38,347 nucleotides of DNA from a virus. Below the pieces are notes generated by a model. That model did no database searches and was not told where the DNA came from. It saw nothing but the letters and a program-made list of their open reading frames with translations. A program made the position numbers and the translations under genes. Positions 13,301-38,167 of this stretch are shown in pieces. How positions within the stretch are numbered: the stretch's first letter is position 1; each line of letters opens with the position of its first letter. The DNA is taken from positions 1 to 38,347 of the IMG/VR virus record IMGVR_UViG_3300047554_000198; one strand, given 5' to 3'.

Positions 13301-13541
13301 GATCAGAACTTGGTCTTTTGTTGTTCGTTCAATCACAGTGATGGTGTTGGTTATTGCATTTGGTGTCTTGTGGCTCATAGGCTTTGAAGAGCAAACAGGT
13401 GACTTAGCTCCTATTGATGCTGTGTTCCTTGAGATCCTCAAAGCTATTGCCTTCATGGGCGTAGGCGCTATGGGTGCTATCTCTGGCCGTAAGGGTGCTA
13501 ATCCACCTGAAGTAAAGAATAACGATGGACAGCCTTCTTAA
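13242..13541 (+). CDS. Two-span membrane protein, holin-like
   Basis: The 99-residue product has a charged N-terminus (MKELIQKWMDKPPMTADEIE) and a first span at about residues 28-47 (VRSITVMVLVIAFGVLWLIG). A second span lies at about 64-82 (LEILKAIAFMGVGAMGAISG), followed by a polar tail. It starts after a ggagaaaaag ribosome site and ends overlapping the 3TM-holin gene by 17 bases. Two spans and this location suggest an accessory or antiholin role. No named family is certain. Confidence 0.6.
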   Translation: MKELIQKWMDKPPMTADEIEIRTWSFVVRSITVMVLVIAFGVLWLIGFEEQTGDLAPIDAVFLEILKAIAFMGVGAMGAISGRKGANPPEVKNNDGQPS

Positions 13542-13977
13542 TATCCTCAAAGGGGCTGCTCCAGCCCTTGCAACAGCCGTAGGAGGCCCTCTAGGGGGTA
13601 TGGCTGTCAAAGCTATAGCTGATAAGCTAGGTGTTCCTGCATCAGTGTCTGAGGTTACTAAGGCCCTTGAGTCGAACCCTGAACTTGCTCTGAAGCTCAA
13701 GGAAATAGACACCAAGGCCTTTGAGGTTGAACAACAGAATGTGACTGATCGTTGGAAGGCTGATATGTCTTCTGACTCTTGGTTGTCTAAGAACATCCGA
13801 CCTATGACCCTTGTGGCTATATTGGGTGCTTACTTCTTGTTTGCAATGATGTCAGCTTTTAATGTCAATGTGAACGAGTCTTATGTCAAATTACTAGGTG
13901 AATGGGGTCAACTGATTATGTTGGCATATTTTGGTGGTAGAACTGCCGAGAAGATTATGGAGAAGAAAAACAAATGA
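13525..13977 (+). CDS. Holin, 3TM (GTA_holin_3TM-like)
   Basis: The 150-residue product starts MDSLLNILKGAAPALATAVG. It has an amphipathic Gly/Ala-rich N-terminal helix (GGPLGGMAVKAIADKLG) and a polar helix with LKEIDTKAFEVEQQNVTDRW. Next comes SWLSKNIRPMTLVAILGAYF and two hydrophobic segments (RPMTLVAILGAYFLFAMMSA and LIMLAYFGGRTAEKI). The order matches the family known as holin of 3TMs from gene-transfer agents and phages, with the W-x-x-x-x-x-RP motif ahead of the spans. By family knowledge it permeabilises the inner membrane to release or activate the endolysin. Its stop overlaps the HNH gene start by four bases. Confidence 0.75.
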   Translation: MDSLLNILKGAAPALATAVGGPLGGMAVKAIADKLGVPASVSEVTKALESNPELALKLKEIDTKAFEVEQQNVTDRWKADMSSDSWLSKNIRPMTLVAILGAYFLFAMMSAFNVNVNESYVKLLGEWGQLIMLAYFGGRTAEKIMEKKNK

Positions 13978-14450
13978 ACCTAAGCGAGTCTTTGACTTCT
14001 CATCAAAAGTCTGTTTTAAAATGGCGTAAGGCTAATCCAGAAAAAGTAAGAGAGACTAAAAATAAATGGAATGAGCTAAATCGTCAAAAAGTAAGAGAAG
14101 ACAAACAACGGTGGATGGCGAAACCAGAAAACCGTATTAGACATTCTTTGGGACAGGCTAAACGAAGAGCACAAAAAGATGGCAGAGAGTTCGATATAAC
14201 TATTGAAGATCTTTTACCTTTGCCAACAACCTGCCCTGTTTTAGGCATAGAGATAAACTATACAGGGACAAAAGCTAGAGGTTTTGTAAATAATTCTCCT
14301 TCGATTGATCGTATTGACTCATCTAAAGGTTACATAAAAGGTAATGTTCAGATCATTTCTTGGAGAGCTAATAGAATTAAATCAGATGCCTCGATAGAAG
14401 AATTAGAAGCAGTTATAAAATATATGAAAGGACATCAACCATGCAATTAA
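13974..14450 (+). CDS. HNH homing endonuclease inserted in the lysis cassette
   Basis: The 158-residue protein has a basic N-terminal part rich in Lys and Arg. Its HNH-type core runs from C87 (TTCPVLGIEI) through SIDRIDSSKGY (residues 110-120), GNVQIISWRANRIKSD (123-138) and a closing helix. These are the marks of a small free-standing HNH endonuclease family common in phages. It is clearly more A+T-rich than the genes on both sides. It splits holin from endolysin, overlapping the holin stop by four bases and the endolysin start by ten. Its first residues MNLSE resemble the endolysin's own start MQLSE, which suggests that it landed at the endolysin start codon. It is probably a mobile gene rather than part of lysis. 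Confidence 0.85.
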   Translation: MNLSESLTSHQKSVLKWRKANPEKVRETKNKWNELNRQKVREDKQRWMAKPENRIRHSLGQAKRRAQKDGREFDITIEDLLPLPTTCPVLGIEINYTGTKARGFVNNSPSIDRIDSSKGYIKGNVQIISWRANRIKSDASIEELEAVIKYMKGHQPCN

Positions 14451-14893
14451 GCGAACATTTTTCACTTGACGAGGCTACCTACAGCGAGACAGCTATCCGT
14501 AATGGTATTGACAACCAACCTTCTACACTCCAGTTGGAGAACATGAAGATTGCAGCTAAGAACTTGGAGCTTATCCGTGCTGCCACAGGCCCACTACGGG
14601 TGAACTCTTGGTTGCGTCTACCAGCAGTTAATGTGGCTGTTGGAGGCTCTAAAGTATCTTCTCACATGGATGGTTGGGCTATTGATGTCTCTAGCTCTAA
14701 ATTGACCCCTTACCAGCTGTGTCAGGAAGTCAAGAAGTCAGGTATCAAGTTTGACCAGATGATCCATGAGTTTGGTCGTTGGATGCATATCAGCTTTGCC
14801 CCTGAGATGAGACAACAAGAACTGACTATCTTCAAGCCTGAGAACAAATACAAAGCAGGTATCTTGACTGAAGAAGAGTACCATAAAGCTTAA
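14441..14893 (+). CDS. Endolysin, peptidase M15 family
   Basis: The 150-residue protein is an M15-type peptidoglycan peptidase (D-Ala-D-Ala or L-Ala-D-Glu type). The zinc ligands are seen in SSHMDGWAID (H75, D82) and in HEFGRWMHISF (H116), with E110 as probable catalytic glutamate. It opens MQLSEHFSLDEATYS, the usual LSxHFxLxE start of phage M15 endolysins. No signal sequence is present, so export depends on the upstream holin. The ATG lies inside the 3' end of the HNH gene, with aaaggacatcaacc before it as ribosome site. A terminator follows 25 bases after the stop. Confidence 0.88.
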   Translation: MQLSEHFSLDEATYSETAIRNGIDNQPSTLQLENMKIAAKNLELIRAATGPLRVNSWLRLPAVNVAVGGSKVSSHMDGWAIDVSSSKLTPYQLCQEVKKSGIKFDQMIHEFGRWMHISFAPEMRQQELTIFKPENKYKAGILTEEEYHKA

Positions 14894-36953: not shown

Positions 36954-37733
36954 ATGTTAGTAGATGATAACGAAGAGTTAGGCTCAGGTAGTGAACTGGA
37001 AGCTGTTGAACAAACACAAGTACAACAGACAGCCCCTGAACCCCAACAACCAGCTTTTGAAGTCCCCGAGAAATATAAGGGCAAGACAGCAGAAGACATC
37101 ATTAGGATGCACCAAGAGGCTGAAAAGCTCATTGGTAAGCAAGCCCAAGAGGTTGGTGAGGTTCGTAAGTTAGCCGATGAACTCCTGAAACAAAGTCTCG
37201 CATCGAATAAACCTCAACATATTGAACAGCAAGAGCCTGAAATTGACTTCTTTGAAGACCCCAAGAAAGCAATTCAGAAAGAACTGTCAGCTCACCCTGA
37301 TGTTATCGCAGCTCGTGAAGCAGCTTTGACATTCAAGAAGATGCAGATTCAGCAGAAGTTGAACTCAGATCACCCTGATTTCACACAAGTTGTACAAGAT
37401 CCAGAGTTTGTTAACTGGGTAAAATCTTCACCCGTTCGCATGGGCTTGTACGCTAAAGCAGACGCTGAGTATGATTATGACAGTGCCAATGAGTTGTTGT
37501 CTACATTTAAACAGATCAAGTCTGTAAAGGCACAAGAGACTAAAGCAGCTGGAGAAGTTGCCCGTCAAAGTGCTTTGAAGAGTGCAGCTGTTGATGTAGG
37601 CGGTACAGGAGAGTCATCTAAGAAAGTTTATCGACGGGCTGATCTAATCCGTCTTCGTATGACTGACCCTGCTCGATATGAAGCTCTGTCTGATGACATT
37701 ATGAGAGCATATCAAGAAGGAAGGGTCCGCTGA
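36954..37733 (+). CDS. Scaffolding protein
   Basis: The 259-residue product has an acidic, Gln-rich N-terminus and then VPEKYKGKTAEDIIRMHQEA, a motif frequent in phage scaffolds. Coiled helices follow, with a central LNSDHPDFTQVVQDPEFVNW. The C-terminal KVYRRADLIRLRMTDPARYE is a basic helix that should bind the coat protein. It directs coat assembly and leaves before DNA entry. AGGAAAGGAAA precedes the start. Its stop overlaps the next start (ATGA). Confidence 0.83.
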   Translation: MLVDDNEELGSGSELEAVEQTQVQQTAPEPQQPAFEVPEKYKGKTAEDIIRMHQEAEKLIGKQAQEVGEVRKLADELLKQSLASNKPQHIEQQEPEIDFFEDPKKAIQKELSAHPDVIAAREAALTFKKMQIQQKLNSDHPDFTQVVQDPEFVNWVKSSPVRMGLYAKADAEYDYDSANELLSTFKQIKSVKAQETKAAGEVARQSALKSAAVDVGGTGESSKKVYRRADLIRLRMTDPARYEALSDDIMRAYQEGRVR

Positions 37734-38167
37734 TGGAATGTTCTCAACTAGAACTAGGATGGTTAGCAGGTATTATTGATGGTGAAGGAAGCATAACTGT
37801 TGTAAAACGAGGCCCTACATTTGTACCTTGCGTAAAGATGTCAAATACATCTAAATTACTAATAGACAAATATTGTAGTCTTTTAGATAAATTAGATATT
37901 TCATATCACTGTTACGGAAGACAAAAAGAAGGAAATCGTAAGTACCAATGGGAAGTTTCTGTTGAAGGTCGTCCGCGTGTTTTTAAATTTGTTACTCTAT
38001 TGCAAGATATTTTAATTGCAAAAAAGTCACAAGCAGAAAAAACACTGGAATGGATAGAAAGTAGAGGACTTGATTTAAGAGGTCCTTACACTGAACATCA
38101 ACTTCAAATTATCAAAGATATCCGAAACCTAAATGGTAGAGGAAGAGAATTTTCAGAAGCAAGTTAA
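37733..38167 (+). CDS. LAGLIDADG homing endonuclease
   Basis: The 144-residue protein has one LAGLIDADG motif, LGWLAGIIDGEGSI (residues 8-21; acidic D16 and E18), so it should act as a homodimer. The rest (KMSNTSKLLIDKYCSLLDKL, YQWEVSVEGRPRVFKFVTLL) follows the family fold. It separates scaffold and capsid genes, overlapping the scaffold stop. Its codons are much more A+T-rich than the neighbours', a sign of recent arrival. It is likely a free-standing mobile gene that spreads by cutting phages that lack it here. Confidence 0.88.
   Translation: MECSQLELGWLAGIIDGEGSITVVKRGPTFVPCVKMSNTSKLLIDKYCSLLDKLDISYHCYGRQKEGNRKYQWEVSVEGRPRVFKFVTLLQDILIAKKSQAEKTLEWIESRGLDLRGPYTEHQLQIIKDIRNLNGRGREFSEAS

Follow-up and report, generated by a model that had tools for sequence, protein, structure and literature searches.

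The window, i.e. the whole stretch of DNA analyzed here, is the 38,347-nt virus record IMGVR_UViG_3300047554_000198 (positions 1 to 38,347), a genome with a GC content of 44%. On its plus strand, a GTA-type holin gene (13525-13977 in the open reading frame list; phrog_3427 holin, 5.3e-17) is the upstream neighbor of a gene encoding a 158-aa HNH endonuclease (13974-14450; MNLSESLT...; phrog_3322, 1.7e-36), hereafter named HNH1. HNH1 is followed by an endolysin gene (14441-14893; MQLSEHFS...) encoding an M15 peptidase (Pfam PF08291, 1.4e-13; phrog_894 endolysin). The three genes are tightly packed. The HNH1 start codon (13974-13976) and the holin stop codon TGA (13975-13977) overlap by four bases, ATGA. 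At the other end, HNH1 and the endolysin gene overlap by 10 nt, the HNH1 stop codon TAA (14448-14450) lying within endolysin codons 3-4. The predicted ribosome-binding site of the endolysin, AAAGGA (14427-14432), is located within the 3' codons of HNH1, with a spacing of 8 nt to the endolysin ATG at 14441. In L004, where HNH1 occurs as well (no other virus with it is among the matches listed), AAAGGG stands at the corresponding position. These coordinates bear out a first-pass annotation of this DNA, which had noted the four-base overlap with the holin stop and a ribosome site and start codon rebuilt for the endolysin at the HNH1 3' end. The HNH1 gene has a GC content of 35%, versus 44% for the genome.

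HNH1 is an HNH-type nuclease according to PHROGs and fold comparison, while Pfam and NCBIfam gave no family. Its AlphaFold model (mean pLDDT 88) shows long N-terminal helices ahead of a PacI-like nuclease part, in which strands 109-113 and 125-129 and helix 130-138 form a beta-beta-alpha unit (109-138). The Foldseek top match in the PDB is PacI (3ldy, E 2.9e-3, probability 1.00); no PDB sequence was matched by a profile built from the HNH alignment. PacI is thus the nearest solved fold to the model, but the identity is 23% over the aligned part, and PacI is a restriction enzyme whereas HNH1 is a phage gene product with an extra N-terminal helical region. Residues C87, D112, R113, G119, Y120, G123, N124, Q126 and N133 are invariant over 22 sequences, and HNH1 carries the HNH/beta-beta-alpha metal nuclease motif with its conserved active-site residues. 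Comparison of the copies in the window and in L004 gave a dN of 0.073 and a dS of 0.75, and the resulting dN/dS of about 0.10 shows that HNH1 is kept under purifying selection. HNH1 is probably a selfish DNA-cutting gene.

The first-pass annotation had also drawn attention to the likeness between the beginnings of HNH1 (MNLSE) and of the endolysin (MQLSE), and 11 of 15 bases are indeed identical (ATGAACCTAAGCGAG versus ATGCAATTAAGCGAA). Inside the window alone this resemblance is modest, since the 8 of 12 bases shared after the ATG are reached at 7 of the 1,279 ATGs on both strands. We therefore rely on HNH-free relatives. Eighty loci with a related endolysin, the best relatives on IMG/VR contigs, were fetched to look for HNH-free junctions, and five of them (L027, L036, L055, L068 and L076) have the same holin junction without an HNH gene. 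In these five, as had been predicted, the holin overlaps an endolysin with a similar start, with the consensus ATGAAC(C/T)T(A/G)AG(C/T)GAACAC. The junctions read ...AACAAATGAACCTGAGCGAACAC in L027, ...AACAAATGAACTTAAGCGAACAC in L036, ...AACAAATGAACTTAAGTGAACAC in L068, ...AATAAATGAACCTAAGCGAACAC in L055 and ...AAGAAATGAACTTAAGCGAACAC in L076. The HNH1 start ATGAACCTAAGCGA (13974-13987) is identical to L055 at 14 of 14 positions, with divergence directly after, and matches the other four at 12-13 of 14. Counted after the ATG, the agreement is 9-11 of 11, and the 11/11 with L055 has a chance probability of about 6e-7. The alignments show that the left end of HNH1 lies in the old endolysin start codons, which are now the start codons of HNH1, and that the ATGA coupling to the holin was kept.

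Homologs of HNH1 located elsewhere do not share this start: none with MNLSE away from the junction was found among the other viral contigs and isolate phages checked. Of five homologs inspected in isolate phages, four have an annotated start; in a base-by-base comparison with its own downstream gene, none of these four showed a clear start duplication. No similar endolysin is present near the homologs L083-L121. An exact-pattern search with the holin-HNH1 junction returned a single match, to a record that does not differ from the window in this part. A distant HNH (41%) is found in L197, elsewhere in the locus and ahead of the holin.

The right end of HNH1 has a different history. Searches were made in IMG/VR contigs and isolate phages, and bacterial genomes were scanned once, with at most the best 80 relatives per scan. 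The backbone of L004 differs from that of the window; its nearest kin are among L005-L011, all HNH-free, and another gene lies upstream of HNH1. HNH1 thus sits at an identical position in two backbones whose nearest relatives are HNH-free, and in this region the similarity between L004 and the window runs from the HNH1 ATG through the endolysin. Within the endolysin gene of the window, the head (nt 4-45) differs from L004 at 4 of 42 positions, from L002 at 11 of 42 and from the same-holin relatives L036 and L068 at 13-14 of 42. The order is reversed for nt 46-420, where L002 differs at 22 of 375 positions, the same-holin relatives at 45-54 and L004 at 63. The switch from the foreign to the resident type falls at about 14485-14491 (about nt 45-50 of the endolysin), so that the first 15 codons (MQLSEHFSLDEATYS, 14441-14485) appear to have travelled with HNH1, while the remainder (14486-14893) is of the resident type. 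HNH-free pairs that share their upstream cassette and are similarly diverged in the endolysin tail served as a control; they had a mean of 5.6 mismatches in the 42 head positions, and 12 or more were found in 1 of 50 pairs. Pairs with different upstream cassettes had a mean of 9.8, and 12 was reached in 304 of 1,018. The endolysin head thus travels with the upstream gene, which in the window is HNH1.

The foreign head, its breakpoint and the presence of HNH1 in another backbone in L004 indicate that the event in the window is the transfer of a ready-made unit, HNH plus endolysin head, into the old endolysin start. The earlier proposal that HNH1 was inserted just behind the old start, with the first codons duplicated, needs revision on its second half: the left start does belong to the resident holin lineage, but the right start and about the first 15 codons are foreign. 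The captured start, the rebuilt start and the empty sites stand, and the two starts are not copies of one another. The L004 copy also starts MNLSE (ATGAACCTTAGTGAG), so the left crossover can be placed only to the start codons. With two HNH1 copies among the matches listed, 16% apart in DNA, no recent jump was caught.

The same junction has been occupied by a second nuclease family. Among the matches listed, five viruses (L035, L049, L135, L217 and L218; four from a dedicated scan and one among the holin loci) carry there an unrelated HNH gene, hereafter named HNH2. The two do not form one family, as judged from their best PHROGs (phrog_3322 for HNH1 versus phrog_2255 for HNH2) and their signatures (DRID...GY..GN versus IDH...CANCN). 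In three of the five, the first HNH2 bases are those of the local endolysin start: ATGCAACTGAG in L035, ATGAA in L218 and ATGCAG in L135. The L035 start equals the endolysin start of L025 and L026, HNH-free viruses with the same holin type (ATGCAACTGAGTGAACA), and reads on as MQL-RIKRG. After the spanin end ...AAATAAGGAATGTTAA, L218 continues with ATGAACCGTAAACGC, whereas L220 and L221 read ATGAATTTAAGTGAACAC there; L135 has ATGCAGAAACGG at the place of ATGCAGTTGAG in L022, L024 and L050. No clear start capture was seen in the HNH2 of L049 (MTHRIKRG) or L217 (MIVVPKIKRG). The endolysin start that follows HNH2 is also recoded, with a TCN serine codon in all five and a TTG start codon in three, versus mostly ATG and AGY in HNH-free relatives.

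A third insert, which enters the holin-endolysin junction at the same base, is not an HNH gene. It is a 60-codon open reading frame (1326-1508 in both L227 and L229) with no PHROG match, and the first endolysin codons after it are likewise coded differently. Since this non-nuclease insert bears the same signature, a nuclease is not required for every such event.

Because the holin and endolysin genes overlap, with no base between them, an insert that spares both must take the old start and bring a new one. These data are best read as repeated landings of free-standing homing-type HNH genes on the start of the endolysin gene, through repair at short homologies that leaves a short co-conversion tract. 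For the window itself, we consider it likely that HNH1 is a free-standing element of the homing type that lands where holin and endolysin overlap, the empty allele being cut and the occupied allele copied. The HNH protein would nick or cut endolysin genes that lack the insert, at their conserved 5' end or close to it, and repair would copy the HNH-bearing allele. The right side of the repair would use endolysin homology, and the left side only a few start-codon bases, the left homology being short where the upstream genes of donor and recipient differ. At its right end, HNH1 carries a ribosome site and a new start for the endolysin, together with about 45 nt of the donor gene; beyond these, the endolysin is again of the resident type. 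The recoded head may also block re-cutting of the new allele. The site is polymorphic for presence and absence of the gene without an intron or intein: it is empty in same-holin relatives and occupied in L004, with no Rfam match. The foreign endolysin head of about 45 nt followed by resident sequence is the trace expected of co-conversion, although ordinary cassette exchange could leave the same tract. It speaks for homing that nucleases of two unrelated families occupy a single junction, that the upstream gene is kept whole where it can be compared, and that the nuclease is under purifying selection. We put forward more tentatively, as a possibility, that the endolysin start is a homing target common to this phage group, hit by at least two unrelated HNH families, each with a recoded head that would restore lysis and give immunity. 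The spread of the nucleases would then exchange the endolysin start along with its ribosome site and the N-terminal codons, possibly altering the timing of lysis.

The strongest rival is ordinary shuffling of lysis cassettes, in which the conserved endolysin 5' end would serve as a short linker, and upstream genes would be exchanged or added by short-homology recombination and selection, with no role for an HNH enzyme. Such shuffling clearly also occurs here and would explain L227. Among the best 80 relatives, at least four unrelated non-HNH cassettes (a short holin-like gene, a GTA holin, a small membrane protein and an Rz-like spanin) terminate on one and the same conserved start of the endolysin, and many of these cassettes overlap the endolysin by 14 nt. 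The endolysin head follows the upstream cassette in HNH-free relatives too, so ordinary exchange has its boundaries at the same place, and the L227/L229 insert bears the same signature without a nuclease. As an account of the HNH genes, we nevertheless find shuffling alone unlikely: the upstream gene is whole in the HNH cases with readable kin, which points to additions rather than exchanges, two unrelated nuclease families occupy one junction in seven viruses, and the nuclease is under purifying selection. Local tandem duplication, in which an HNH gene inserted behind the endolysin start would have had the first codons of that same gene copied to its far side, fares much worse. It would account for two starts that are 11/15 identical, but the right-hand head is foreign to the lineage and matches L004, whereas the left-hand start matches resident relatives; we consider it very improbable for the window. 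Further back, such a duplication could have occurred in the element's first ancestor. Still less credible is a chance resemblance, with MNLSE being simply the beginning of this HNH: the frequency of equally good matches among the ATGs of the window would allow it, but not readily the perfect agreement with the HNH-free L055 allele of the same junction, the parallel start captures by HNH2 and the failure to find MNLSE in any of the HNH1 homologs checked elsewhere. Finally, a self-splicing mobile intron rejoining MNLSE to the endolysin is suggested by an HNH gene between two start-like sequences, but is hardly conceivable, since the HNH1 open reading frame fills the whole insert and leaves no space for an intron core, and the endolysin is complete by itself. 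A group I intron with an HNH gene was also rejected as a candidate, as no Rfam family reached the gathering threshold anywhere in the window.

Reading HNH1 as a homing-type element places it beside known free-standing systems. The seg and mob homing endonucleases of phage T4 overlap upstream open reading frames and spread by intronless homing with co-conversion of flanking DNA; in T4 phages, different nuclease classes target one gene, and the enzymes often cut hundreds of bases away (PMC2988022). The locus described here resembles them in having a nuclease gene between conserved phage genes, an overlap with the upstream gene, a tract that may stem from flank co-conversion and several classes on one gene. 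What sets it apart is a landing point at the start codon of a lysis gene, together with the capture of the old start by the nuclease gene and a recoded start for the target; the cutting by HNH1 is putative. Gene-splitting insertions such as mobE in Aeh1 nrdA and mobA in T4 gene 60 (PMC2988022) likewise place a homing endonuclease gene inside a functionally important phage gene, but there the protein is split in two, whereas the endolysin is whole here by means of a rebuilt start. Homing endonuclease genes are also enriched beside essential genes and at boundaries of genetic exchange (PMC10448857). These too, as here, adjoin essential genes and recombination boundaries, with mixed nuclease families at one locus; a search of that text for endolysin, holin and start codon found none of these terms. 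Judged by titles and abstracts, nothing found in the literature obviously matches HNH genes between holin and endolysin, and a precedent may exist. Free-standing homing itself is known; what appears new is that, at a lysis gene and in parallel cases, the start codon of the target is captured and a recoded one takes its place.

Where phage genes are tightly packed and their stop and start codons overlap, there is no neutral gap, which raises the question of how a selfish gene can enter and leave the phage viable. The junction gives a base-by-base answer with parallel cases, in which the newcomer takes the old start and the target gene gets a recoded one. Should the HNH proteins prove to cut the former junction, this would provide a compact, testable model for the joint shuffling of nucleases and lysis cassettes, and for the escape of the new allele from re-cutting.

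Relatives of the virus gave few indications of its host. The terminase has only distant relatives among isolate phages, and the endolysin gave one partial match in bacterial genomes. This match (L299) lies on a contig binned as a Bacteroidales MAG, and could be a host hint or a mis-binned phage.

Homologs of HNH1 in three isolate phages (L303, L304 and L301) immediately precede genes for exonuclease, DNA polymerase and morphogenesis and overlap them by 4 to 17 nt, which suggests that the family tends to enter where neighboring genes overlap. Elsewhere in the window, the scaffold gene and the gene for the major capsid protein are separated by a LAGLIDADG gene (37733-38167; Pfam 5.6e-9; 34% GC), whose ATG overlaps the stop codon of the scaffold gene (TGATG). 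G004, G002 and G014 (L203, L205 and L204) lack an insert at this site, and their scaffold end is GAAGGTCGTGTTAAATAA versus GAAGGAAGGGTCCGCTGA in the window. L206 carries a diverged LAGLIDADG, and its scaffold also ends in EGRVR, so that this insert may carry its own recoded scaffold tail.
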